From positions 1 to 22,043 of the IMG/VR virus record IMGVR_UViG_3300044858_000394: a stretch of 22,043 nt of DNA; one strand, written 5' to 3'. Position 1 is the first letter of the stretch. The number at the start of each line of letters is the position of its first letter. Below, in pieces: positions 1 through 19,867 of the stretch. Under the pieces are notes generated by a model that did not search any database, was not told the origin of the DNA, and saw only the letters and a program-made list of their open reading frames with translations. This DNA is from a virus. The translations under genes and the position numbers were made by a program.

Positions 1-3000
1 GTAGACCATGCCTGATACTCAGGGGTTTGCCTAAATTCAGTCAACCGCTTGTGCAGGGGGGACATGGCTTCAAGCAGTTTCTCTTGATAGCCCGCCATCT
101 CTTCTACCGTATTGGCAAAACGAGCACCTGTCTCACCCAAATAGTTCTTAGAGATTTCACCCAAGGCAGACAAGTTCAACGCCTTGTACATCAACTGACG
201 GCCAACTGTGCCAATCTTCTCCGCACCCTTCCAAAACCCAACAGCACCTTCTTTGTTCATAAGAGGTTGCTTGCGGATAGTGTCGCCCATCTTTGTGAAC
301 ATCTCTTGCACAACATTAGGGTTATGCAGGGATTGTGCATACATAGTTTCACCCATGCGCTCGGCAGGGGGAGGGCTGATGATGTCGTTCAGCATGCGGT
401 CAATCGCATCCAACGCAGTCTCGGTCTTAGGGGGCAAGCGGAGCATCTGACGTACAGAATTAACTAAACGCTCCCAACCAGTGAGCTTCTCGCCAGTGGG
501 CTTGAACTGCTTTAAGTGATTGCGAAACCCATCATTACTCCACGCTTCCGCAGCGAACTCTTGTATATCTTGCGCACCATAAGTTCCTTCAGTGCCTTTC
601 TTCATTTGATTGAAGAGGGTTGTGACCTGACGGGTAACGGGGTGTGACGGGTTGTCCAAAGTGTGGGACATGGTTGCATGTGAGGACTCATGCAAAATCT
701 CGTACTCAGTAGCACCGTCACGCAGATAGACTGTGTTGGTCTTTGGATCGTACATGGACTTCTTAGCGCCATATACTAGGTTCACATTACCAACCAGTTT
801 GGATAAGTTCTGTGCAAAAAGTTCTGCTGTCTTAGATGAACCGCTATCCGCCAGCGCCTGTAAAGCGCCTACCAAGTTATTGTTAGCAAGCTGTTGGAGC
901 ACCACCGGGTGAGCCTGTGTATGTAATGCGGCAAGGTCTGCATCAGCCTCAAAGCCAGTTATATCGGTGTCGGCAATATCATCTAAATCACTGTAAGGAT
1001 CTTCTTCAGCCAACTGCCGTGCAAGACGTTGTAGTTCTTTCTTACGTTTGCCAGCCAAAGTTTTTGTACCTTTAGCGTCTTCAAGTTCTTCTAGCGTAGG
1101 CGCAAACTCACCTTCGGCTTTGGCAGTAGCGGCTTCGTCAGCAACTTGCGTTGCTGTACCTTTGCGAATGTCTTGTTGCTTCTGCTGTTTCTTGCGTGTC
1201 TTACTAGAGTTTATTTTCTCTTTTGTGTATTGCGCAATCTTCTGATCCATGAATGCTACAGCTTCAGGAGACAAGTTAGCACGTGCCCATGCTTCGGCAT
1301 TCTTGGCGTGGATACCGCCTTGGCCTAAATAAAACGCGGCTTCTTCTTTGGTGCCAAACGTAGGTTCGGGAGTTGCCGCAAAAGTTCCGGGCTTTGATTC
1401 ACTAGGCAACGTCATCTTTGAGTTGCGGTAAGCAGTAGGCTGATACACCAAATCGTTGGCAATCGAATCAAGCGCAAGTTCGGGGACTACTTTGCCAAAA
1501 TAGGCACGGGCATCTTTAGCAATCTGATCTAACTTGTTCTTTAGCCCACTCAACTTCTGTTGGATAGTGGGCAGTTCTGCGGATAAATCAGGGCGATCTA
1601 AGATGCCTCGTGTGGTAGTTGTTGCCGCTTGTCTTTGCGCTTCTGCTTGCTCGGTTTGAGTGGTCGTAGTGCCATCGGTTGTGGTTCCTTCAGTTAATGT
1701 AGTGGACTGCTGTCCTTCTCTTCCAGTAGCGTCTGTAGCATTCTGGTCAGTAGAAACATTTCCACCTCCGACAGTTGTTTCATCGGCTGTGGTATTTTCT
1801 GTAGCAGTGGATTGGCTATCCACGCTAGGGCTTCCTCCACCTGTGGTGGTGTCAGGTCTTGTAACATCAGGTACTCCAAATGCAAATTGGCGGGTTTGTT
1901 CTTGCTGTTTCTGCTTGGTGGGAGAGATATCTACGGACTGCATTTCAGCACGAGCGGCTTTGACTTCTTCGGGATCAAAGGTGCTGACAATATCATCGTA
2001 TGCGGCAGGGTCGATGTTGCCCATGAACTCAGGGTTCTCAAGCGTCTGAATAAACTTGCGGCGACCATCGACCGTATCAAGATCGGTACCTAATAACTGC
2101 AAACCAACCTTAGAGCGGTCAGACACCTTAAGATTTTTCAGGGTGTCAACTGTAACGGGATCCCCGGGCGTGTTTGTAGTTACAGGGCCAAACGCAAAGT
2201 CACGTGTAGCTTGTTGTTGATCAGCACGTTGCTGTTCAAGTGCGGGGCTGTATAAACCACCAGTACCGGGAGTAGGTGGCACTTTGGCAAACGCACTGCC
2301 TTTGGCTCTCTCAGCATCATACGCTCGGTCGAGTGCAGTTTCAAAATCATACTCGGCTTGTAGCTTATCAATTTCAGCTTGAGTTTCTGCATCAGGCGTA
2401 TAACCTTCAGCGGGCCGTATTTGATCCATACGCGCTTGAAGAGCTTTAAGGTTCTCTGCACGTTGGTTGTAATCAGGCAGACCCTCAAACGTAGAAGTTA
2501 AGTCTGCTTCACGTTGCTTACGTGCGTTCTCAAGTGCAATGTCGTATTCAGCACGGCGTTCAGGGGTGAGCGTACCGGCTTTAGCTTCGGCATCCATTTG
2601 CGCTTTGAGAGCCGCTTCGGCTTCTTTGGTATCTTTAAACTCTTTGCGGGCAGTCAAGCCTTGGCTTGCGCCACCGACAGTACCAAACGCACCACCACCG
2701 ATTGCACCTTTAACAAACGATTCTTTGAACCGCTGAATGTTCTCTGGGCCAAACATGTCTTTAGTACTACCTGCAACTTGTTCTGCGGCGGCATTGATAG
2801 ACTCTTGCGCTGCCTCAGTCAAACCTTCAGTACCTGCGGTTTTAGCGGCTTCTTTGCCAATGTACTTCCACACTTTTGGTGCGGCACCAGAATCTTTGGC
2901 CATCTTTTCAATGACCTTCATCTTGCCGTAACCACCAAGTTCACCCAACAATTTGCCGGGGACAATAGCGTCTAAGACGGAAGATAGACCACCAAACAAA

Positions 3001-3656
3001 GCAGCAATACCCGGCTCCATCTTGTCAGTTTCTTGGTAGATGCTTTCGAACACTTCAGGTGCGTTCTGTGCAAACGAACCAAGGTACACACCACCATACA
3101 TCGCACGTTTACCTGCGACCTCACCCGCTTTTTTAGCGGCAGTCTCTGCGGCGGCAAGTCCTACACGGGATAGCGGGCCAGCTTCCAAAGCGGCACCCAT
3201 AGCACCACGAGCGGCAATCCTACTACCCACAGCACCGGCACCTATACCGGGGACTAACGCAGTTAAAGCTGTTGGGCCAAGTTCACCCAAAGTTTCTGCG
3301 CCGTACTGCAAGGCTTCGTATGGGCTACCAATTTCAGTGTATGACCTGAACTGCGTAGGGTACTTGGTTTCTAATGCGGCACGGGATTCTTGCGCCTCTC
3401 CCAGTTGACGTTGGGCGTACTCATCAAAGCCAAGCGCAGATGCGCCCATAGCGGGGAGCGTGTCCCCTAAAGCGATACCTGTTTCCCCCAAACCACGCAT
3501 GAAGCCGCGCTTGAGGAGGGTGCCAATCCCTACATCAGGCTTTGGCATTCTAAAATCGTACTTCTTTTCAAGCCTACCCAATTCAGCCTGTAACTGTTCG
3601 GGTGTTAACTCATCACTAAATTTAACAGGGCCAAGTTTAGGCAGGTCGATAATCAT
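1..3656 (-). CDS. Giant phage protein with zincin (HExxH) metallopeptidase domain, C-terminus beyond window
   Basis: An open frame of 1,218 codons runs from ATG at 3656 to the left edge with no stop, so the C-terminus is missing. AGGTAAG precedes the ATG, 15 bases after the upstream stop. Residues about 45-335 are rich in Gly/Ala hydrophobic stretches (for example LGELGPTALTALVPGIGAGA, 123-142), with SFAQNAPEVFESIYQE (194-209) and EGLTEAAQESINAAAEQ (277-293). I recall this pattern from large phage ejection and polyvalent proteins. Residues about 335-455 look helical. Two TRxFAFG motifs follow (484-490, 588-594), then a Thr/Gly/Ser-rich linker (about 601-683). HESSH lies at 989-993, with EFAAEAWSN at 1033-1041 offering a third zinc-ligand glutamate (E1033 or E1037). 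Gene position matches T7 gp16 (internal virion protein D), but a zincin replaces the usual lytic transglycosylase in the part seen. I infer a virion-borne, injected peptidase. Frame and motif are certain; role is not. Confidence 0.85.
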   Translation of the reverse strand, partial: MIIDLPKLGPVKFSDELTPEQLQAELGRLEKKYDFRMPKPDVGIGTLLKRGFMRGLGETGIALGDTLPAMGASALGFDEYAQRQLGEAQESRAALETKYPTQFRSYTEIGSPYEALQYGAETLGELGPTALTALVPGIGAGAVGSRIAARGAMGAALEAGPLSRVGLAAAETAAKKAGEVAGKRAMYGGVYLGSFAQNAPEVFESIYQETDKMEPGIAALFGGLSSVLDAIVPGKLLGELGGYGKMKVIEKMAKDSGAAPKVWKYIGKEAAKTAGTEGLTEAAQESINAAAEQVAGSTKDMFGPENIQRFKESFVKGAIGGGAFGTVGGASQGLTARKEFKDTKEAEAALKAQMDAEAKAGTLTPERRAEYDIALENARKQREADLTSTFEGLPDYNQRAENLKALQARMDQIRPAEGYTPDAETQAEIDKLQAEYDFETALDRAYDAERAKGSAFAKVPPTPGTGGLYSPALEQQRADQQQATRDFAFGPVTTNTPGDPVTVDTLKNLKVSDRSKVGLQLLGTDLDTVDGRRKFIQTLENPEFMGNIDPAAYDDIVSTFDPEEVKAARAEMQSVDISPTKQKQQEQTRQFAFGVPDVTRPDTTTGGGSPSVDSQSTATENTTADETTVGGGNVSTDQNATDATGREGQQSTTLTEGTTTDGTTTTQTEQAEAQRQAATTTTRGILDRPDLSAELPTIQQKLSGLKNKLDQIAKDARAYFGKVVPELALDSIANDLVYQPTAYRNSKMTLPSESKPGTFAATPEPTFGTKEEAAFYLGQGGIHAKNAEAWARANLSPEAVAFMDQKIAQYTKEKINSSKTRKKQQKQQDIRKGTATQVADEAATAKAEGEFAPTLEELEDAKGTKTLAGKRKKELQRLARQLAEEDPYSDLDDIADTDITGFEADADLAALHTQAHPVVLQQLANNNLVGALQALADSGSSKTAELFAQNLSKLVGNVNLVYGAKKSMYDPKTNTVYLRDGATEYEILHESSHATMSHTLDNPSHPVTRQVTTLFNQMKKGTEGTYGAQDIQEFAAEAWSNDGFRNHLKQFKPTGEKLTGWERLVNSVRQMLRLPPKTETALDAIDRMLNDIISPPPAERMGETMYAQSLHNPNVVQEMFTKMGDTIRKQPLMNKEGAVGFWKGAEKIGTVGRQLMYKALNLSALGEISKNYLGETGARFANTVEEMAGYQEKLLEAMSPLHKRLTEFRQTPEYQAWS
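678..692 (-). other. Zincin active-site motif HESSH in the giant protein
   Basis: Codons 989-993 read His-Glu-Ser-Ser-His, followed by Ala-Thr. HExxH is the zinc-binding and catalytic signature of zincin metallopeptidases: two His ligands and a general-base Glu. The preceding residues (TVYLRDGATEYEILHE) have the hydrophobic character of the active-site helix. The acidic EFAAEAW segment 40 residues downstream is where a gluzincin-like third ligand would be expected. Confidence 0.75.
1608..1856 (-). repeat. Low-complexity Thr/Gly/Ser linker inside the giant protein
   Basis: This codes for residues about 601-683 of the giant protein, dominated by Thr, Ser, Gly, Gln and acidic residues (TTTGGGS, TTVGGG, TTTDGTTTT). 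It separates the N-terminal hydrophobic and helical half from the half carrying the HESSH motif. Both FAFG motifs lie on its N-terminal side. It reads as a flexible interdomain linker. Confidence 0.6.
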
Positions 3657-3671
3657 ACTTACTTACCTATT

Positions 3672-5534
3672 TTAATATTCGCCGGATGGACGTGCGCTTA
3701 AAGCATCTATTGCTTGGCCCCTGATATCTGCTAGATAGGCTTGTTTACGTTTATTAAATATATCTGCGGCTTGTTGGCTACGCAAGTCTTTAGCAGTCAG
3801 GAAATTAGGGCCATAGTCTTTGGCAAGTTGCGCTCTGAGGGTGGCACCTTCATTTTGCATAAAGTCATTAAGACCTTTTGCAGTTGCTTGCATAATACGC
3901 GCTTTATTTGCGTCATCCAAAGAGGCATAACGTTTTTCTTGTGCGGCAAGAGTTGCTTTAGAGATTGACCCTTGCTGTTGTAGTTGTGCAATACCCAGTG
4001 CGTTACGGTTCTGTTGGTCAATTGCAGACAGTTTTAACTGCTCACCTTGGTTAAGTACACCAGCTTTACCAATATCACCAGTCTGTTCAATTTGTTGACG
4101 TTGTAAGGCTTGGCTATTACCGGCAGAAGCGGCGTTCAAATTTAAGCTAGTGTACTTATACAAGTTATCAGCGGCACGTTCTCCAGCCGCTTGAGCGGCT
4201 TGGTAGTTGCCTTTCTTAGACGCAACTTTCTGTTGCTCAAGGTTGTCACGATAATCTTCTAACTTATCTTTAGCGGCACGATTTGCGGCTTCACCACGAA
4301 TGAGGTCTTCAATACCTTGACTGCCTTCGTTACCCAGAGCACCTGCAAGGGTGCGTTCTTTACTACCGGCAATACGCAGACCTGTTTTGATACCGGTCAA
4401 GGCGCGGCCAATTGCACTTTCTCTTTCAAGGCCAGTTTCTCGTTTGCCAAGACGTTCTTCACGAGCTTCAAACCCGGGTCTGTCCATATCTTCCAGTTTA
4501 TTTTGCACTTCTGTAACTTTAGCTTCTACTGCCGTTTTTGTTTCTGCTGGTAATTTTTTGGTAATTGCATCAAGGTCGGTTAATACAGGAGCCGTACGTA
4601 CTGGCAGAGTCGCAATAGTTGGCGTGTATGTCTGCATAGCAGGCATCTTAAAACCAATATCAGCAGAAGCCGCAGGGGGAGCGGGAGGAGGTGGTTGTGT
4701 TTGAGCACCGGGAGCACCGGGAGCCGCAGGTGTGGGGGTTGGAGCTACAGCTTGAGTAGGCGCGGCAAAACTAGCGAGTGCAGATGGCCCTTCTGCCGCA
4801 AGTTGTTGTAACTGCGGAAAAGATAAGTTTGGTAGCGCGGACGCAACGGCTTTAGCCGCTAGGCGTTCTTCATCAGTTTGTCGCATGAACAAACCGGGCA
4901 CAGCGGACGCAGGGCCATACTGCATTTGCAGTTTGTTGCGTAGTTTGGCCATTTCATTAGCCTCAGTAAAATTTTGTCCTAGGCCACTAAAGTAACGACC
5001 TGCTGGGGTTGTTTCTTTAGGTTTAAACACATCATAAGATTGCTGAAGTTTTTCACCACTTTTCTCCATGGCATCAAGTATTTCTTTAGCGCGTTTTCTG
5101 TCGCTTTCACTCATGCCTGTGAACCCAGTGTTCTGATAACGCTCAACCTTGCCACCATCTTCAAACGCAATGATGCCGCCACCGGCATAGGACTGTGGCA
5201 GGTTAGATTGCAGAGCTTCAACACCTTGAGACTGATCCGCTTGAGCGGCTTGCGCCATAACTTGTTGAGCAATCGGAGCACCACCCTGTTGTGGTTGTTG
5301 CATCCCAGCACCAGTAACAGCTTGCGCCATCTTGGCTTTAACTTCTAACAACTTGTTGGTAAGTTCTTGAATGAGGGGAATACCCACATACGACTTAATT
5401 GCACCGCTCTGAACACCCGCAATAAGACTTTTCTGTATAGCTTGAATCTGTTCTGGGTTTCTGGCACCTTTAGCCATTGCCGCCATAGAAGCGGCGCGGC
5501 GTGACATGTCATCTTGTAGGCTATTGAGGCTCAT
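3672..5534 (-). CDS. Large Ala/Gln-rich virion (ejection-type) protein, 620 aa
   Basis: ATG at 5534 is preceded by AAGGTTAAATT, and the upstream gene stops 9 bases earlier. Residues 1-110 look helical and Ala/Gln-rich. Residues 116-129 carry YAGGGIIAFEDGGK, a motif I recall from many uncultured aquatic phage proteins and which echoes motifs in neighbouring genes. A Pro/Ala linker spans 259-289, and residues about 318-610 are charged, Ala/Gln/Lys/Glu-rich and predicted helical. No enzymatic motif is seen. Position just before the giant protein and after the 615-aa protein corresponds to T7 gp15 (internal virion protein C). I infer an internal or ejected protein by composition and gene order, not by a recognised domain. 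Confidence 0.8.
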   Translation of the reverse strand: MSLNSLQDDMSRRAASMAAMAKGARNPEQIQAIQKSLIAGVQSGAIKSYVGIPLIQELTNKLLEVKAKMAQAVTGAGMQQPQQGGAPIAQQVMAQAAQADQSQGVEALQSNLPQSYAGGGIIAFEDGGKVERYQNTGFTGMSESDRKRAKEILDAMEKSGEKLQQSYDVFKPKETTPAGRYFSGLGQNFTEANEMAKLRNKLQMQYGPASAVPGLFMRQTDEERLAAKAVASALPNLSFPQLQQLAAEGPSALASFAAPTQAVAPTPTPAAPGAPGAQTQPPPPAPPAASADIGFKMPAMQTYTPTIATLPVRTAPVLTDLDAITKKLPAETKTAVEAKVTEVQNKLEDMDRPGFEAREERLGKRETGLERESAIGRALTGIKTGLRIAGSKERTLAGALGNEGSQGIEDLIRGEAANRAAKDKLEDYRDNLEQQKVASKKGNYQAAQAAGERAADNLYKYTSLNLNAASAGNSQALQRQQIEQTGDIGKAGVLNQGEQLKLSAIDQQNRNALGIAQLQQQGSISKATLAAQEKRYASLDDANKARIMQATAKGLNDFMQNEGATLRAQLAKDYGPNFLTAKDLRSQQAADIFNKRKQAYLADIRGQAIDALSARPSGEY

Positions 5535-5543
5535 AATTTAACC

Positions 5544-7391
5544 TTATCGTGGAGTCAAAGCGTTGTTCAATGCCAAGGCACTAACACCGGCTGTACCAAA
5601 ACCTGCAATCTGATTACCAAGTGTAGGCTGTGCTTGATACTGAGTTGTAGTTGTACCGGGAACGGCATAACCACGCAACAAAGCGTTGTACTGATTGAAC
5701 GCAGTCATAGGCGCTTCTTGCGCTTGCGCGTAGTTCTGGATCGCTTGGTTGATGATCTGCTGTTGCTGACCTTGTTGCTGCCCGCCAATTTGATTTTGCA
5801 AACCAAGAATACCTGTCTGTGCAGCAAGTTGCTGTGTGCCAAGTTGACCAAGAGTCCCGGCAGCCTGATTGGCTAACCCATAACCAGCTTGTTGTCCTGT
5901 AACACCTTGGAGGCCCACTTGAGCACCCTGCATACCTTGGGCAGTGCCTGCAAGACCACGATCTGCGCCTGACAAAGCAAGTTGACCAGAAGCCAAAGCA
6001 CGATCCACACCAGATAAGCCAACACCGGCACCTTGCATGGCGGCTTGAGAACCTTGGATACCTTGGCCAGTACCCGCCAGTTGAGCATTAATACCTTGTA
6101 AGCCAACACCTGCGCCTTGCATACCCAGACCATACATAGAACCAGCCTGACCTACACCAGACAGAGCACCTTGTTGTCCTTGTAATGCTTGACCAATACC
6201 AGACAGGCCAAGTTGACCACCTTGCAAGGCAGTACCTAGACCAGATTGCGCACCACTCAAACCTTGAAGACCAAGATTGGAGCCATACTGCATAGCTTGA
6301 ACCGCTTTTTCATAAGCGGCTTGTTGACCTTGAGCGCGGATGGCATCCATCTGTGAAGCCAAAGCACGGTTAGCTTCAGCATTCTCAATAGCCTGACGGG
6401 CACCACCAAACGCACCTGCACGAGCGGCGGCGGCTTTACGGCCTTGAGCGGCAATATCCGCTTGACGTTGCGCACCCTGTATTTGAACATCAGTCACAGC
6501 AGACTGATAGGGATTCATGTATCGCTGAACCGCATAAGGATCGGTCATTTGCGCGGCATATTGTTGCCCTGCGGCGGCTTGTTGACGTGCTAAATCTTGT
6601 GATTGCGCAGTGATACCTCGGCCAGTGTTTTGGGCATCAAGTGCCATATTGCCAATAGTAGAAGCATTTTGGCCATAACCTAAAGCAGTGTTTGCTAACT
6701 GAGCAGCTTGCTGGCCGTAACCTGCGCCCATACCGCCATAATACTGACCACCTTGTGTGCCAATTTGTTGCCCTAACAGACCAGACTGTTGACCTTGCAG
6801 ACCAGCTTGAACACCCATGTTGCCGTAGCCATAAGCCGCTTGTTCACCCATGGCGGCACGTTGCGCCGCTTGTTGCGCCGCTTGCATACCAAGAGCCTGA
6901 CCCATTTGGCCGGACTGGAATCCAGCATTGCCATAACCTGCGGCTTGATTGGCAGTACCTAAACCACCTTGGGCGGCGGCGTTAGCGTAACCAGTAGCTT
7001 GATTAAACTGGCCGGGCATCATCAAGTTGGCCGCGTTGTACTGAACCTGCTGTTGCAGAGGACTAAAGCCCGCTACGTATTTAGACGGGTCACTGCTGTA
7101 AGGGACAAACGGTTTAGTACCTGTGATGTCCTCGTTGTAAATGATGTTACCAGCTTCGTCTTTTTGACCACTGTCAACTTTTTTGGTTTGGAATAAGTTT
7201 CTACCCGCACCCATAAGCACGTTCTCAACTTGAGGACGCAGCCAGTCAGGCACATTAGATTGCGTAACGTTTGTTTGTGTGGGGCCACCGCCGCCACCGC
7301 CGCCATAAATAATGCGGCCACCTTCTTTACGGGTTACAGATTCACCAAGGGGTTCACCCATGGCGTAAAGTTCTCGGCGGGAATAGCTCAT
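5544..7391 (-). CDS. Gly/Gln/Ala-rich virion protein with heptad repeats, 615 aa
   Basis: ATG is at 7391, just inside the 3' end of the preceding gene (4-base overlap). The N-terminus has KEGGRIIYGGGGGGG (22-36). Residues about 150-260 are Gly/Gln/Tyr-rich. Residues 285-366 form a conserved-looking helical segment containing DPYAVQRYMNPY and AAAARAGAFGGARQAIENAE, a pattern I recall from other aquatic podovirus-like proteins. Residues 373-498 are 18 in-register seven-residue repeats (pattern x-G/A-L-x-G-x-x). Residues 537-545 are nearly all Gln, and 547-587 hold a distinctive C-terminal block (AQEAPMTAFNQYNALLRGYA). No enzyme motif is visible. Size, composition and neighbours suggest an internal virion protein that is ejected into the host, as for T7 gp14/gp15, but this is inference. 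Confidence 0.8.
   Translation of the reverse strand: MSYSRRELYAMGEPLGESVTRKEGGRIIYGGGGGGGPTQTNVTQSNVPDWLRPQVENVLMGAGRNLFQTKKVDSGQKDEAGNIIYNEDITGTKPFVPYSSDPSKYVAGFSPLQQQVQYNAANLMMPGQFNQATGYANAAAQGGLGTANQAAGYGNAGFQSGQMGQALGMQAAQQAAQRAAMGEQAAYGYGNMGVQAGLQGQQSGLLGQQIGTQGGQYYGGMGAGYGQQAAQLANTALGYGQNASTIGNMALDAQNTGRGITAQSQDLARQQAAAGQQYAAQMTDPYAVQRYMNPYQSAVTDVQIQGAQRQADIAAQGRKAAAARAGAFGGARQAIENAEANRALASQMDAIRAQGQQAAYEKAVQAMQYGSNLGLQGLSGAQSGLGTALQGGQLGLSGIGQALQGQQGALSGVGQAGSMYGLGMQGAGVGLQGINAQLAGTGQGIQGSQAAMQGAGVGLSGVDRALASGQLALSGADRGLAGTAQGMQGAQVGLQGVTGQQAGYGLANQAAGTLGQLGTQQLAAQTGILGLQNQIGGQQQGQQQQIINQAIQNYAQAQEAPMTAFNQYNALLRGYAVPGTTTTQYQAQPTLGNQIAGFGTAGVSALALNNALTPR
5898..6275 (-). repeat. 18 tandem 21-bp units encoding glycine heptads
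   Basis: Residues 373-498 of the 615-aa protein divide into 18 consecutive sevens, such as VGLQGIN, QGIQGSQ, VGLSGVD, LALSGAD, QGMQGAQ and VGLQGVT. A large hydrophobic residue usually occupies position 3 and Gly or Ser/Ala position 5. Only the unit at 415-421 departs clearly. The DNA shows a matching 21-base period with variable third positions, so the period is kept at protein level. Confidence 0.8.
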
Positions 7392-7819
7392 ATTAGTACC
7401 TCGACTAAGGTGTTGCGCGGTTCAAAGTTATAACGTTTCCACAAGCGCACGATGGCTTCACGGCCACTACCTTGTATTTTCGTTGCCCCATGTGATTTAA
7501 GCAACTCTTTTAATTGCTCAAAAGTAGCTTGGTTAGAAATCAATTTACCGCCAATGCAAGTGACAAACGCTACCCTATGAAGCGGGTAGTTTATAAAGGA
7601 CACAGTGCAAGCACCGTGGATTTGTTTTTCTTCATCAATAGCAACTAACAAAAGCCATTGCCCAGAAGTTACATATTGTTGTACGTGGTCAATGTTGTAA
7701 CAATACGCCCAGTCAGGGAAGTCATGACCTTTGTTTAACGCATCCTCAATGTACGGCTTGACCGTAGGCCATATTTGCTGGACGTAGCTTACATCTACTG
7801 AACGGATTGTTAGGTTCAT
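7388..7819 (-). CDS. GNAT-fold-like protein, possible T7 gp13 (internal virion protein A) counterpart
   Basis: ATG at 7819 overlaps the upstream stop as ATGA. The Shine-Dalgarno is weak (GGATGATGTTG), so translation is probably coupled. The 143-aa protein has an acetyltransferase-like layout: an N-terminal strand and helix (LTIRSVDVSYVQQIWPTVKP), a central sheet (WLLLVAIDEEKQIHGACTVS), and a C-terminal helix-strand (REAIVRLWKRYNFEPRNTLV) like the end of GNAT domains. The usual acetyl-CoA loop (Q/R-x-x-G-x-G/A) is not obvious, so it may be catalytically inactive. T7 gp13, an internal virion protein of similar size at the equivalent gene position, is also described as related to this fold. A structural or assembly role is therefore at least as likely as acetylation. 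Confidence 0.65.
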   Translation of the reverse strand: MNLTIRSVDVSYVQQIWPTVKPYIEDALNKGHDFPDWAYCYNIDHVQQYVTSGQWLLLVAIDEEKQIHGACTVSFINYPLHRVAFVTCIGGKLISNQATFEQLKELLKSHGATKIQGSGREAIVRLWKRYNFEPRNTLVEVLI

Positions 7820-8958
7820 TCAACATCATCCATCAAAGACGCAATACCACCTTCAGCACGGCGCATTACGTTGGGGGTACCACGCATTTGGGCAGACCGA
7901 CCAACAATAGCTTGGCTTGGGCCAGATGATGTACGCTGTGGCATAGGCGCGGGCTGCTGGTAACTAAATGGCGACTGCATTTGGTACGGGTTGTACTGCG
8001 GTTGATAGCTAAATGGGGACTGCATTTGATACATTGGATTTGTTACGTAAGGCGACAAACCACCCATAGGACTACCAAACCCACCATAACCAGCAGTCAT
8101 TAGTTGGCCATTAAAACCAGAATTATTGGAGTAAGGATTAAACGGTTGTTGTGCTTGTGCCTGCATTGAAGGCATAGACATCTGAGGGCCGTAGTTGTTA
8201 TAGCCACCAAATGATTGAATATCCGTGCGGTTAATACCTGAACCACGCATAGCGGCTAATGTGCTGTTAATGTCAGAATTTGGGTTCTGTTGAAAGTAGT
8301 TACCAATTGCGTTGTTTACTACTTGTCGGCCACCAGCGGCAGAGCCAGAGTTAGCATCGTTATATGCCCTAGCGGGTGAATATACGGGTTGTGTGCCATA
8401 CGTACTTGTATCAAACTGCGTAGCAGGACGTGCGTAGTTCATGTACGAACTGTTGTAGACAGGCTGAAAGAACTGATCAGAACCTGCGTAAGGTCTACTG
8501 GTAGGAGAAGTCATAGCCGCATTTTGGACTAGATATCCATAGTCAGAATCTGATACGGGTCTACCATTAGTCGTTAAGGCATTACGGATGTCGTTACCCG
8601 TGTAGCCTTGTTGTAACAACGCGTTGTATTGTGGCCCTGATTGGTTGTATGGTTTGCCATACATATTTTGAAGATTGAGGTTGTTGCTAGGTATAGTAGA
8701 AGTACCGGCAGTGTTGCCTGTACCAGTAAAGTTCATACCAGTGATAGAACCACGGTTAGGATTAAATACTGTACTGCCAGTATTAGAAACGTTTGTATTC
8801 GTGGCAGGAGTATTTCCACCACCAGCATCGCCACCGGGGCCACCGCCATCACCTACGCCATCACCAGCACCATCTCCACCACCGCCGCCCCCACCGCCGC
8901 CACCAAAGCAACGGCGAACACCACCATGAAACCCATTAAATTTGCTTGGAATAATCAT
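7816..8958 (-). CDS. Gly/Asn/Tyr-rich low-complexity virion protein, 380 aa
   Basis: ATG at 8958 follows AAGGAACAGCC, 9 bases after the upstream stop. The N-terminus is basic and hydrophobic (VRRCF at 14-18), then ten consecutive glycines (19-28) and a Gly/Asp run to about residue 48. The middle is Asn/Ser/Tyr/Gln-rich and looks disordered or aggregation-prone. Near the end is a 15-residue tandem duplication containing YQMQSPFSYQ. The protein ends RRAEGGIASLMDDVE, a C-terminal motif related to GGI motifs in neighbouring proteins. I do not recognise a family. It lies in the nozzle-to-ejection block, so a minor virion component is the most economical guess. Confidence 0.75.
   Translation of the reverse strand: MIIPSKFNGFHGGVRRCFGGGGGGGGGGDGAGDGVGDGGGPGGDAGGGNTPATNTNVSNTGSTVFNPNRGSITGMNFTGTGNTAGTSTIPSNNLNLQNMYGKPYNQSGPQYNALLQQGYTGNDIRNALTTNGRPVSDSDYGYLVQNAAMTSPTSRPYAGSDQFFQPVYNSSYMNYARPATQFDTSTYGTQPVYSPARAYNDANSGSAAGGRQVVNNAIGNYFQQNPNSDINSTLAAMRGSGINRTDIQSFGGYNNYGPQMSMPSMQAQAQQPFNPYSNNSGFNGQLMTAGYGGFGSPMGGLSPYVTNPMYQMQSPFSYQPQYNPYQMQSPFSYQQPAPMPQRTSSGPSQAIVGRSAQMRGTPNVMRRAEGGIASLMDDVE
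7961..8032 (-). repeat. 45-bp-period direct repeat in the 380-aa gene
   Basis: Two 27-base copies at 7961-7987 and 8006-8032 differ at three positions and encode the peptide YQMQSPFSYQ (first nine residues within the matched copies). Their 45-base spacing is in frame, giving a 15-residue tandem duplication. High DNA identity suggests a recent duplication. Confidence 0.8.
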
Positions 8959-8967
8959 GGCTGTTCC

Positions 8968-10023
8968 TTATGCGTATGTGGGCATATATTTACGCGGATC
9001 AATCTCTTTACCCTGAGACTTACGACCCGTGCGGGCTTTGCGCACTTTGTCCATCATGGCATAAAGTTGTTTGGCACCTGCATCAGAAGAGCCGTTACCA
9101 AGGTGGGAGACCACATCGGCGGGAACTACAAACTCTTCTGTGGCCAAACGAGCGGGGCGCTTACCTCCAATGCTTGCGGGAATACTGTCAGACATACCAT
9201 CACCCGGGCCTTTGAGCATACGGCCACCACGTGCGTAATCAGAGTAGCTTCCCAGATCAGAGATACCACCACGAGCCATGGCCTGTGGGTACATTGGCAT
9301 TTCGCCAACCATGCGGTCATAGCCACCTGCGGCTAAGTCAGTAATACCGCCTTCTGCGTAAGGCGTAACGCCGCGATAGTCCGAGCTAAGACGGAAACGT
9401 TTAAGGGGGCCGTTGTATTCTTCAGGGGAATAAGGATCTTCTTTTCCACCCATAGCACCAGCTAAACCAGAGGCGGCGGCAGTAAAAGGATTAGCTTTCA
9501 ATGAAGCCATTGGATCAGATGCAAACTTAGCCATACCCTCACCAAAAGTTGGAGCGGGTGGAGGGGGAACTACTGAAGGTGCGGTAGGTAGAAACGGAGA
9601 AGTAGAAGCGGCGGGTAGGCCAGAGATACCTGCACTACCTAAATTTCCTGTAAGCGGAAGCGCCTGATTCATTGCCGCATTAACACCAGAGGTGGTGTTT
9701 GCCAACTGGCTTGCTTGCGCAAAACTTTGACCCGCTGGAATTGGTGTAAATCCAGTAGTAGCAACTGGATTAGCTAACATATTTGATACAGGCAAAGCGT
9801 TAGACATCGCCGCATTCGTAGCCGCCTCAGTACCCGCAGTAGCCAAAGCCGCTTCTGTACCAACAGCCGCACTGCCGCCCAAAGCACCACCAATACCCGC
9901 ACCGGCACCGCCGGTCAAGCCCCCGAGGAGAGCACCTTTAAGAGGATCGCCACCAGTCAAAGCGGCAGAGCCACCACCCATTGCCGCGCCAAGCAGCATC
10001 GCTTCACCGACTCCAGTACCCAT
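8968..10023 (-). CDS. Gly/Ala-rich virion protein with conserved C-terminal module, 351 aa
   Basis: ATG at 10023 is preceded by GAGGAGCCTATT. Residues 9-50 are a glycine-zipper-like hydrophobic segment (LLGAAMGGGSAALTGG, then GGLTGGAGAGIGGALGG), suggesting membrane insertion. Residues 75-195 are Ala/Ser/Pro-rich. From residue 222 come YAEGGITDLAAGG, MARGGISDL (249-257) and YARGGRMLKGPGDGMSDSI (263-281). A compact C-terminal module follows, with EEFVVPADVVSHLGNGSS (296-313) and a basic helix. I recall this C-terminal block from uncultured aquatic phage proteins, always without assigned function. Membrane-active N-terminus plus location between nozzle and large ejection proteins fit a T7 gp14-like ejected protein, by inference only. 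Confidence 0.78.
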   Translation of the reverse strand: MGTGVGEAMLLGAAMGGGSAALTGGDPLKGALLGGLTGGAGAGIGGALGGSAAVGTEAALATAGTEAATNAAMSNALPVSNMLANPVATTGFTPIPAGQSFAQASQLANTTSGVNAAMNQALPLTGNLGSAGISGLPAASTSPFLPTAPSVVPPPPAPTFGEGMAKFASDPMASLKANPFTAAASGLAGAMGGKEDPYSPEEYNGPLKRFRLSSDYRGVTPYAEGGITDLAAGGYDRMVGEMPMYPQAMARGGISDLGSYSDYARGGRMLKGPGDGMSDSIPASIGGKRPARLATEEFVVPADVVSHLGNGSSDAGAKQLYAMMDKVRKARTGRKSQGKEIDPRKYMPTYA

Positions 10024-10453: not shown

Positions 10454-12562
10454 TTATCTCCTACCGTCGGCTCTGATATCAAGTCTAGGTGCACCTAACT
10501 GCCATGTTGTACCAATCTGGTCTGAGGCAATTTTAAATATCATCTGACGACCTCGAACACGAGTGTAAATCTGCCCCGTGTATTCTTCAGTGATATTGTA
10601 TGTTGCGCCCTTAGTGACACTCGCACTGCCCACATTTCCTGTGCCAGAGCCAGAGTTTTGTAGCGGGTACAAAGTCATAGCAACTGCGGCGGCAGAACCA
10701 CTAGGTGTTGACGTAGAGTTTTCAAATGTTAAATCAGGCAATATGCGCCACACATAGCCAAAATTGTGGCCATCACCAATGTCAAATTCAGAAGAAGAAA
10801 TGTAAGCTGGCAACGCAGTTAAGTTGCCCAAAACATAAGCGTCTACACCATCTTCGTGTTGCACAAGTTCACTGTCATACGTAGCGGCAATGGGCAATGG
10901 TAGTAAACCAGAATCTAACCAAGCTGTACGACCCATATTGCCGTAACTCCACACATTCTCAATGTAGTTATAGATCACATATTTATCACTTACGGTTGAA
11001 TCGGCAGAGCAATAGAACCACCAGATTTCGTTAAAGCCTTCGTTTGTTCCCGCATAAACTTGTTGGGGTTGTAATTGATTAAAGTCATTAAAAATGTAAC
11101 GACGTAAGTCGCAATTCAGTGTTTGTACACGACCATCATATTTGTAGAACTTGTCTACGCCCATCCAATACACCGCGCCTGAAGCAATTACAGCGGCGTT
11201 AGGGCCAATGATAGAAACATTGTCTGCAAGAAGTTGTGCTGTCCACACAAAAGGCGGCCCTACGTACTGCAATGAATAAAGCGAAGAATCTGTGAACACC
11301 ACAATTTCTTGACGAGACTGTAGGGCAGTAATGATTTCAGATCCATGAGACAGTTGCAAACTACCTGCTTGATTTGTAGCCTGTGGTGTCCATGTGTATG
11401 GGTCTTCTTGGTCTGACCAGCGGATCAACATAGGATTTAGAAATGTTTGCCCGTAGTCATTTGTACCAAACACCAATACAAACCGGCTGGTATCAGATAC
11501 TAAGATATAGTTTTGAAATAACGGCGCATCATCATCGCCAGCATCGGCTAAATCAATACCCCGTTGAGATATGCGTTGGGTACCAGACTGGCCGCCAGAC
11601 GTTGTAATAGGGACGCCGTTTATTGTTGTAGACACATTAAATGTACCGCCTGTAGAGTTCACCACAAAATACACTTGCCCTACTGTTAAGCCCGTAGGTA
11701 ATGCGCCGGTAGACGTAAATGTAATTGTTGTGCCATCAGGAAATGAAAACCCAGCGGGTAGTGTGATCTGACCGGGGGCTGCAATACTAATTGTTATTTG
11801 AATTGGCTCGTAACCTACGTTTGCGCTCCAATAGTAAACGCCTTGACCCCGTGGGCCATACACTAAATCTTCACCAAAGTTTTGTTGGTTCCACAACTGG
11901 AGAGATGTAGATGTAGTTTGGCCATTACCCCACGTACCCGCACCCCAAGGGCCAGCACCCCAACCAACTAAAGGCACTTGATATGCGGGGCCAGTATTAG
12001 TTTCGTATTGTGTTACGACCGTTCCGCCACCGGGGGAACCTGCAACGTCTGTAGCGTTGGCAGTGGCTGATACTGTAATGGTGTAAGTATTATCATCAAC
12101 AAACGTAATAATAAAAGTACCAGTTAAAACACCGGCAGTAATGTTGCCACCAAGTCCTACGATACCTCCGCCGCTATAAATCACTGTATCGCTATCTACA
12201 CAGCCGTGATTAGTTTCTGCTACGGAAATAACTGCTGAACCATTGGTCGCTGTAAAAGGATTTGTAAGGGTGATTGTTTTACGGATTGGGGTGACATCGT
12301 AGTAATCGCCACCTTTAAGGATGTAGAAATACAGATTAGTGCCAACACCAACTAGATTTTCTCCCGTAAGAGTAATCCAGTTCCACAGAGAACGGCAAAC
12401 CCCCTGAAAGGTACCACCCGCAAAAGGTTTCCATCCACCAATCTTTTCTGGGTTGCCTTGGCGAAAACGAATCTTATCGCCCTCATACCAGCCGCCTTCG
12501 GTGGTATAGCGTGTGTTTTCCCGGTTGACCCCCGGCTTAAACAAGAATTTTTGTAGTGGCAT
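10454..12562 (-). CDS. Tail nozzle / DNA stabilisation protein (T7 gp12- or P22 gp10-like), 702 aa
   Basis: ATG at 12562 is preceded by AAAGGTAGCCC. The N-terminus (PGVNRENTRYTTEGGWYEGD, 10-29; KIRFRQGNPEKIGGW, 30-44) is the opening I associate with the stabilisation/nozzle family of short-tailed phages, which closes the portal channel and forms the tail tip. A Trp/Gly loop (GWGAGPWGAGTWG, 200-212) and WSDQEDPYTWTP-type segments further along support this. Two beta-rich stretches, at about 95-185 and about 255-330 (PTGLTVGQVYFVV), look like inserted domains. Length lies between P22 gp10 (about 470) and T7 gp12 (about 790). It opens the nozzle/ejection block, directly downstream of the holin gene. 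Confidence 0.75.
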   Translation of the reverse strand: MPLQKFLFKPGVNRENTRYTTEGGWYEGDKIRFRQGNPEKIGGWKPFAGGTFQGVCRSLWNWITLTGENLVGVGTNLYFYILKGGDYYDVTPIRKTITLTNPFTATNGSAVISVAETNHGCVDSDTVIYSGGGIVGLGGNITAGVLTGTFIITFVDDNTYTITVSATANATDVAGSPGGGTVVTQYETNTGPAYQVPLVGWGAGPWGAGTWGNGQTTSTSLQLWNQQNFGEDLVYGPRGQGVYYWSANVGYEPIQITISIAAPGQITLPAGFSFPDGTTITFTSTGALPTGLTVGQVYFVVNSTGGTFNVSTTINGVPITTSGGQSGTQRISQRGIDLADAGDDDAPLFQNYILVSDTSRFVLVFGTNDYGQTFLNPMLIRWSDQEDPYTWTPQATNQAGSLQLSHGSEIITALQSRQEIVVFTDSSLYSLQYVGPPFVWTAQLLADNVSIIGPNAAVIASGAVYWMGVDKFYKYDGRVQTLNCDLRRYIFNDFNQLQPQQVYAGTNEGFNEIWWFYCSADSTVSDKYVIYNYIENVWSYGNMGRTAWLDSGLLPLPIAATYDSELVQHEDGVDAYVLGNLTALPAYISSSEFDIGDGHNFGYVWRILPDLTFENSTSTPSGSAAAVAMTLYPLQNSGSGTGNVGSASVTKGATYNITEEYTGQIYTRVRGRQMIFKIASDQIGTTWQLGAPRLDIRADGRR

Positions 12563-18754: not shown

Positions 18755-19231
18755 TTAGGTTGTAGCCAAACGAATCAAAGCATCTGTTGTGTTGTTTGTT
18801 GGCATTGTCAAAGTAAACGTGCCAGCAGTGATTGTTTGTGAACCAAACGTATGAACGCTTACAGCCTTATTGCTTTGTGTTGAGTTGTAGATCAACACGG
18901 CATCAAACGCTGTAGCCAAAGTCACTGTGGTGTATGTAATACTGGCCGAAGGCGTGACAAACGCAACACCCGCCGTTGCAGAGCTATTGGTTGCTGTTGG
19001 GGGTGTGCCAAATGTAACTGCAACACCGCCCGCAGAGTAGCCAGTACCAGATACTTCATTACTAGCAGAGTATGCTGTTGTAGAAGCATTAACCGTTGCG
19101 GTTGTTAAATACAACGCGGCTTTAAAGCTATCTGTTGCGCCGGTTGCACGAACTGGGGCAGTGCCGAAGTTGTGTGTTGCGGTCATCAACTCGCCCATAA
19201 AGCTGGTTGTCATTGCTTGAGTATTTGCCAT
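18755..19231 (-). CDS. Structural beta-rich protein, paralogue B, 158 aa
   Basis: ATG at 19231 is preceded by AAGGAGCCTAAC. The Ala/Thr/Ser/Val-rich 158-aa protein is beta-rich and shares a layout with the 140-aa protein at 19445-19867: FKAALYLTTATVN, AYSASNEVSGTGYSAGG, AVLIYNSTQSNKAVSV and TFTLTMPTNNTTDALIRL match corresponding segments there in the same order. I recall this type from uncultured phage genomes as a virion protein without a precise role. Its location between the head-tail adaptor and the fibres suggests a neck, decoration or tail-surface protein. It is 18 residues longer than its paralogue, partly because of its extended N-terminus (MTTSFMGELMTATHNFG). Confidence 0.78.
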   Translation of the reverse strand: MANTQAMTTSFMGELMTATHNFGTAPVRATGATDSFKAALYLTTATVNASTTAYSASNEVSGTGYSAGGVAVTFGTPPTATNSSATAGVAFVTPSASITYTTVTLATAFDAVLIYNSTQSNKAVSVHTFGSQTITAGTFTLTMPTNNTTDALIRLATT

Positions 19232-19444: not shown

Positions 19445-19867
19445 CTATACAAGTCTAATGAGTGCAGCCGTGCTAGTGTTAGCAGGCATCGTTACGGTAA
19501 AAGTTTGTGTTGATGTTACGTTATTTCCAAAATCTAAAACACAGACAGCCGCGCCAGTAGTCACGTCATAAATTAACGCACCCCTAGCAGTAATTGCGCC
19601 TGTCCATGCTGGGCTGGAAAAGTTAACGTAAATAGTACTGCTGTTGGAACTAAGCGCAGTATTCACGGTCGCCGTTACTATTTGACCACCCGCTACATAG
19701 TTACCACCAGAAGCCTCGCCGTCTGATGTGTAGGCCGCAGTAAGCTGGTTTAAAGTAGCGGAGTTGGTATACAACGCCAATTTAAACGTGTCCGTTGCAA
19801 ATACTAACGTGCTGTTAATTAACCCAGTCCGTAACGTATTGCAGGAATAATTACCTGTAAAAGCCAT
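19445..19867 (-). CDS. Structural beta-rich protein, paralogue A, 140 aa
   Basis: ATG at 19867 overlaps the adaptor stop by one base (TGATG), so translation is probably coupled; no strong separate ribosome site is visible. The 140-aa protein contains FKLALYTNSATLN, AAYTSDGEASGGNYVAGG, ARGALIYDVTTGAAVCVLDF and TFTVTMPANTSTAALIRL, each with a counterpart in the 158-aa protein at 18755-19231. No catalytic motif is visible. Expression coupled to the head-tail adaptor and strong beta content suggest a virion component. Confidence 0.78.
   Translation of the reverse strand: MAFTGNYSCNTLRTGLINSTLVFATDTFKLALYTNSATLNQLTAAYTSDGEASGGNYVAGGQIVTATVNTALSSNSSTIYVNFSSPAWTGAITARGALIYDVTTGAAVCVLDFGNNVTSTQTFTVTMPANTSTAALIRLV

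Follow-up and report, generated by a model that had tools for sequence, protein, structure and literature searches.

A 615-aa protein encoded on the minus strand of a 22,043-nucleotide stretch of viral DNA (hereafter the window) is probably a podovirus-type DNA ejection protein that folds into a single long hairpin of antiparallel helices, in which arm A would run out to a GAFGG tip and arm B back, packed in register through glycine/alanine faces; several such hairpins may form a tube. Both arms are periodic, their lengths are locked together across relatives, insertions and deletions fall at mirror-image positions in the two arms, and the tip is conserved. The sequence patterns argue strongly for in-register antiparallel pairing of the arms, and analogy with known ejection systems moderately supports the association of several ejected hairpins into a DNA channel or tube. 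The length lock and the mirror-symmetric indels are the main point, and they are visible only with relatives. The gene and its parts are as follows (A3, short-armed relatives; A2, long-armed relatives).

5544..7391 (-): 615-aa hairpin protein, putative DNA ejection protein (open reading frame; relatives match phrog_4287; profile link A3-A2)
6417..7073 (-): arm A, aa 107-325, Gly/Ala/Gln-rich, between the AGFSPLQ anchor and the tip (Gly/Ala period ~3.6; length 219, locked to arm B)
6402..6416 (-): hairpin tip GAFGG, aa 326-330, the most conserved part of the family (A3 conservation; AlphaFold2 helix break at 325-330)
5682..6401 (-): arm B, aa 331-570, between the tip and the LLRG anchor (Gly/Ala period 3.50; AlphaFold2 helices 331-420 and 437-572, low confidence)
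5898..6275 (-): 18 glycine heptads inside arm B, aa 373-498 (register score, shuffles)
5547..5681 (-): C-terminal segment following arm B, aa 571-615, with the LLRGYAVP anchor and a Gly/Ala-rich end

The original prediction had pointed to 18 in-register glycine heptads at aa 373-498, and this held far beyond chance. Nucleotides 6275-5898 encode exactly these residues, and the 18 units follow the pattern x-[G/A]-[L/I/M]-x-G-x-x, with G/A at position 2 in 17/18, L/I/M at position 3 in 16/18 and G at position 5 in 16/18; all three positions agree in 14 of the 18 units, and two of three in a further 3. The register score was 49; shuffling these residues 20,000 times and keeping the best of 7 registers gave 21.3 on average and never more than 32. 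The period-3.5 Gly/Ala power was 14.9, as against at most 8.9 in 5,000 shuffles. The period is kept in relatives, in which the heptad run ranges from 3 to 90 by a fixed rule. We rejected a DNA-level tandem array as the source of the heptads: TRF found no repeat across them, and its only matches were a 1.9-copy 21-mer at 6766-6805, which lies in arm A, and two shorter rows, neither of them in the heptads.

The Gly/Ala residues are spaced 3-4-3-4, which yields an unbroken small-residue stripe where normal coiled coils hold large core residues, and a large residue adjoins this stripe in the heptads. Pooled over 38 relatives and read from the tip, the seven columns were L/M/I (76%), Q (59%), G (78%, plus A 11%), mixed, G/Q, mixed and G/A (82%). 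The protein is not a canonical coiled coil by the usual pattern of large hydrophobics at a and d, since the 3-4 positions are Gly/Ala and L/M/I (76%) stands beside them. Helix packing through glycine faces, as originally proposed, fits these data: Gly/Ala occupy both core-like columns, 2 and 6 from the tip (89% and 82% G+A, 38 proteins).

Two periodic regions flank the conserved segment that ends in GAFGG (aa 326-330). Before residue 284 the Gly/Ala period of the window protein is 3.59-3.6, versus 3.50 in arm B, and the longest relative (L028, 1,723 aa) shows sharp periods, 3.610 N-terminal to this segment and 3.500 C-terminal to it. The Gly/Gln/Tyr region at aa ~190-255 had been read as a degenerate continuation of the heptads; it has its own period of 3.6 rather than 3.5 and its length tracks arm B, so that it is instead the partner arm, A. 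In A3, an alignment of 54 short-armed relatives, the three tip glycines and the following R are invariant. The arms are nearly uncharged (A 6% and B 2% charged residues), with 22% Gln+Asn. In 43/131 relatives (e.g. L013, L015, L035) the C-terminus runs more than 150 aa past the C anchor; these proteins are probably fusions with the downstream cassette protein, and such putative fusions suggest that the two proteins work together.

The window protein itself had no Pfam match (E<=0.1) and no PHROG match (E<=0.001), probably because its arms dominate; tblastn of this protein and of one relative (L041) against 50,697 phage records gave no match, and a Pfam search of all 54 A3 members found nothing. 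Relatives were collected from IMG/VR (57 loci directly, and at least 80 loci in each of two profile scans), and a scan of genome contigs added one more (L143, 2e-11). Among these, 53/54 A3 members matched phrog_4287, "DNA ejection protein" (best 7e-25), as did 7/8 in another set and the four named-phage members tested (DSL-LC04, HTVC023P, CRP-901 and MinM2; E 2e-19 to 1e-4). The A3 profile aligned with the long-armed A2 profile over 321 columns (hhalign probability 100, E 3.2e-92), and the large gaps in this alignment fall where the arms differ. The named-phage members of PHROG 4287 share the tip motif and synteny with the window protein; they are 278-461 aa long, compared with 615 aa for the window protein and 1,723 aa for the longest relative, and the relatives span 239-1,723 aa in all. 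The cultivated Caulobacter phages GB2A, RW, RLK and KcrB also carry a member.

AlphaFold2 monomer models gave low confidence for both the window protein (26 sequences; mean pLDDT 53, pTM 0.27) and a short-armed relative, L083 (54 sequences; mean pLDDT 61.6, pTM 0.29). The former has helices at 129-214, 223-283 and 287-324, a break at 325-330, then helices at 331-420 and 437-572; the latter has helices at 110-141, 147-190 and 202-263. Both agree with a helix-tip-helix arrangement, although at this confidence the models do not themselves establish the helices, and neither of the two low-confidence monomer models showed arm-arm contact. A Foldseek search of the L083 model against the PDB found nothing (best E 3.4), and a profile search of PDB sequences gave no match. 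The window model had 14 matches in BFVD at E<=0.001, all with large rmsd and uninformative given the low-confidence model.

For the arm lengths, A was counted between the AGFSPLQ anchor and the tip, and B between the tip and the LLRG(L/Y) anchor; the anchors were located by small profile HMMs, which had been built from the same sequences that they then measured. From 176 distinct arm pairs, 30 without an anchor were dropped, leaving 146, and 6 near-duplicates were removed, leaving 140; one of the proteins, L017, entered by its open frame, its tblastn match spanning frames. Across these 140 non-redundant relatives, arm A ranges from 65 to 781 and arm B from 94 to 791 residues, with r 0.987. Independent contrasts on a tree of the anchor blocks gave r 0.993, with equal sign in 114/117 non-zero contrasts. 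Similarly, among 41 non-overlapping sister pairs, length differs in 26, and in 25/26 both arms lengthen or both shorten; in the remaining pair, L033/L161, only A differs, by 11.

Most pairs fall on a single line. In the main class (104 pairs), B = 0.9765 A + 30.5 (slope error +- 0.0018, r 0.9998) with a residual SD of 1.7, a value that is flattered by the partly circular selection of this class on the outcome (B-A <= 31). Within it, B is a multiple of 7 in 88/104, 12/104 members lie more than 1.5 residues off the line, and B-A falls from 28 (A = 91) to 10 (A = 781). Free of outcome selection are the set of 140, the 41 sister pairs and a split by a sequence signature described below (126 and 14 proteins). 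In the 126 proteins picked by absence of the signature, the Theil-Sen slope is 0.981 (0.978-0.984); B-A exceeds 31 in 22 of them, most near a steep line (e.g. 94/137).

The drift in B-A and the slope of 0.977 are as equal numbers of turns predict, with about 3.6 residues per turn in A and 3.5 in B, so that helical turns, not residues, are matched between the main-class arms. Consistent with this, the ratio of the two periods in L028 (3.500/3.610 = 0.970) agrees with the window-to-L028 length ratio of 546/562 = 0.972; these are separate data, the former being phase within one protein and the latter lengths between proteins. A separate observation concerns L021 (A 392, B 441), one of the 22 and a clear exception to the length lock: its arm B exceeds the expected length by about 28 unmatched residues (four heptads), and carries a recent 56-aa duplication that has no counterpart in A. 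It is either an assembly error or an unpaired intermediate.

Could the arms be low-complexity, mostly disordered Gly/Gln repeats that drift in length, with the correlation reflecting a shared expansion bias? The composition of the arms and the low AlphaFold2 confidence speak for this reading, which we nevertheless regard as highly improbable. Such a bias would not yield B = 0.977 A + 30.5 with a residual SD of 1.7 over 65-781 residues, nor mostly whole-heptad steps or mirror-image positions, and prolines are absent from the B arms (0/7,674 residues in 90 proteins), which argues against disorder.

The positions of the length changes are matched as well. In 37 related pairs, chosen for similar arm-length change and not for position, a single gap per arm was placed by best identity; the distance of the gap from the tip agrees between the arms with a Spearman coefficient of 0.96 (31 pairs). 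For 14 indel events, hand-picked from the 37 pairs to cut overlap and with a few sharing a sequence, the mean offset was 5.7 residues, versus 48.9 at random and 21 when permuted among events, and 0/20,000 permutations gave one as small. Between the window protein and L003, for example, the indel lies 137-138 residues from the tip in A and 137-142 in B; the corresponding values are 177-180 and 173-181 for L005/L004, 151-152 and 151-156 for L010/L006, and 67-68 and 52-56 for the worst-matched event, L045/L054. Furthermore, L024 has 86 (A) and 84 (B) residues more than its near-identical sister L014. The extra residues are two copies of a 43-aa unit in A and of a 42-aa unit in B, absent in L014, and the tandem junctions of these recent duplications lie 227 (A) and 216 (B) residues from the tip. 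Read from the sequences, mirror-image indels are what in-register antiparallel pairing would demand, and we know of no other simple explanation for them.

These positions also bear on a three-helix bundle, in which B would fold back at a YGSNLGLQG break so that the arms lie side by side rather than as one straight hairpin. The L083 model, with helices at 110-141, 147-190 and 202-263 and a break at 191-201, favors such a bundle. We consider it improbable, since indels match at equal tip distance from about 45 to 180 residues out, past the break, and a fold-back would pair B with B. A single hairpin remains the preferred reading of the arms.

A smaller group of relatives obeys a different slope. 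The signature F[NRTS][ATS][EDQ]Q[AQR], read in arm B independently of length, is found in 14 proteins, with slope 1.98 and r 0.999; B mod 11 is 5 in 9/14 of them. When the second class was defined instead by B-A >= 42 (29 proteins, L021 excluded), the slope was 1.94 +- 0.05. In the signature class prolines make up 38/628 residues of arm A and 0/958 of arm B, versus 38/8,392 residues of arm A in the main set (90 proteins). Polyproline II rises by about 3.1 A per residue and a beta strand by about 3.3 A. With helix B at 1.5 A per residue, a slope of about 2 places arm A at about 2.9 A per residue, and arm A of this class probably runs as an extended strand beside a hendecad helix B. We know of no structure of a proline-containing extended arm A against a hendecad helix B. 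If arm A is so read, physical length, rather than residue number, would be the invariant in both classes. Examples of the second architecture are L042, L192, L175 and L109.

The original prediction had placed the protein in an ejection setting, and this is supported by the phrog_4287 matches of relatives together with the hub-before-hairpin gene order. The neighbouring genes are as follows.

10454..12562 (-): tail hub or "stabilization protein", 702 aa, P22 gp10-like by position and annotation (phrog_3287, E 1.3e-62)
8968..10023 (-): conserved 351-aa cassette protein with a C-terminal GxSDSIPA-type motif (synteny, alignment)
7388..7819 (-): 143-aa protein encoded immediately ahead of the hairpin gene, where CRP-901 has a protein annotated GNAT; no Pfam match
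3672..5534 (-): 620-aa protein, the next gene, probable second ejection protein (role inferred from position)

By tblastn the tail hub matched 145 phage records, the matched proteins being annotated "stabilization protein". Hub and hairpin gene lie on one strand in 126/223 loci (loci from separate scans, partly overlapping), and 22 of those 126 have the full window gene order. The gene of the 620-aa protein, which had no family match in PHROG or Pfam, follows the hairpin gene in 29 loci. In window positions 1-3671, past this gene, there is no large minus-strand open reading frame, and no third ejection protein was seen there.

The most widely shared cassette protein is the 351-aa protein, present in 200/223 loci from these overlapping scans. 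Its C-terminal stretch GDGMSDSIPA...EFVVPADVV can be aligned with MinM2 (E 1e-22), and also with the final part of a DSL-LC04 protein for which tape-measure PHROGs are matched. The 351-aa protein is kept in phages without an evident long tail. DSL-LC04 differs from the window in having a 1,068-aa "DNA transfer protein". We rejected a role of the hairpin protein as a tape measure for tail length, as no tail tube or sheath gene was found among the subset of open reading frames scanned. Two separate genes, 18755-19231 and 19445-19867 (both minus strand), match PHROG 644 (function unknown) and are paralogues in one structural operon. Runs of at least seven glycines occur near the N-termini of two cassette proteins, at 5544-7391 and 7816-8958 (both minus strand).

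A real hairpin could still be a static part of the virion, such as a fibre, a rod surrounding the portal or a spacer inside the head, instead of an ejected channel. All of the hard evidence concerns the arms and not function, the PHROG name is an annotation, and very long arms such as those of L028 do not easily fit the picture of an envelope channel. Against this, the hairpin gene follows the tail hub and precedes the gene of a second cassette protein, as in the P22 order gp10-7-20, and charge-poor Gln/Gly/Ala arms (2-6% charged) suit a DNA conduit better than a fibre. Taken together, we judge a static role unlikely.

For the favored ejected hairpin, a mechanism can be outlined. Arm A (aa ~107-325) would run to the GAFGG tip and arm B (aa ~331-570) would return paired turn against turn, the glycine/alanine faces letting the helices pack unusually closely. 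Several hairpins would be stored in the virion and ejected first; they would then line up laterally to form a tube whose surface is uncharged and rich in Gln, prolonging the short tail across the host envelope like T7 gp14 and the phiX174 H tube. The nearly uncharged, Gln/Asn-rich arms fit a conduit with no grip on the DNA. How far the tube reaches would be set by arm length; at 1.5 A per residue this comes to about 33 nm for the window protein and 10-117 nm over the family. A podovirus head is shorter than 117 nm, so that a straight 781-residue arm, at 117 nm, would exceed it; a straight rod inside the virion is therefore impossible for the longest members.

More tentatively, the protein may be an ejectable tail extension of genetically set length, with a single-hairpin subunit whose two rails are matched turn for turn and whose reach evolves by paired duplications, from about 10 nm to more than 100 nm, possibly fitting the thickness of the host envelope or surface layer. 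Arm A would then lie outside and arm B inside a gently twisted tube, a conjecture suggested by the 3% longer path of A.

Because they refold and act transiently, ejection proteins are difficult to study. This family is a natural length series covering an approximately tenfold range of arm length, in which sequence alone suggests the facing residues; both the fold and the contribution of length to genome delivery are thus directly testable. It is rare in evolution for two distant parts of one gene to gain paired, mirror-image insertions of equal numbers of turns, and here two physical solutions, helix against helix and, probably, extended chain against helix, obey one length-matching rule. Length matching may also guide the design of protein rods or tubes of tunable length.

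Among known systems, P22 gp7 resembles the window protein in its setting: it follows gp10 in the operon (order gp10-26-14-7-20-16), is Gly/Ala/Gln-rich and is named for DNA ejection (phrog_598). The hairpin gene likewise lies downstream of a gp10-like tail hub, the ejection role of the following gene being assigned by position only. P22 gp7 is 229 aa and lacks long arms, whereas the window protein is 615 aa and long-armed, and the profile match was not significant (hhalign probability 1.5%, E 0.035). T7 gp14 was likewise not related at the profile level (hhalign probability 0.07%, E 0.7, not significant) and belongs to a different PHROG. Neither comparison being significant, we assign the hairpin protein to neither family.

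In its proposed structure the window protein resembles T7 gp14, an outer-membrane ejectosome protein whose gene is the first of its ejection cassette (PMC8954989). Ejected gp14 extends the tail channel towards lipopolysaccharide; there are six copies, each a pair of antiparallel helices with a short loop between them (PMC11784390), and a two-helix antiparallel hairpin of this kind is proposed for the window protein. The gp14-like proteins are 181-240 aa and vary by less than 30% (PMC8954989), compared with 615 aa for the window protein and 239-1,723 aa for its relatives. DEV gp73 is reported to form a nonameric membrane channel (PMC10925440). The phiX174 H tube is a decamer with 11 heptads and 3 hendecads and a Gln/Asn/Arg-rich lumen that spans the cell wall (PMC7354561); the hairpin family has heptads in its main class and steps of 11 in the second. 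H differs in being a single helix per subunit from an ssDNA phage, 170 A long and without glycine faces, whereas a glycine-faced hairpin is proposed for the present family.

The PHROG name of the family and the idea of a hairpin for gp14 are already known. As far as our searches show, what is new is a length-locked, mirror-evolving, glycine-faced hairpin with a tenfold range of arm length, its arms being undescribed in the open papers searched. SMC proteins have canonical coiled coils without glycine faces, and ATPase heads. Their arms form an intramolecular coiled-coil hairpin whose length is under selection, with preferred steps of about 100 aa (PMC5344682), and we cite them, claiming no homology, as a precedent for selected hairpin length.
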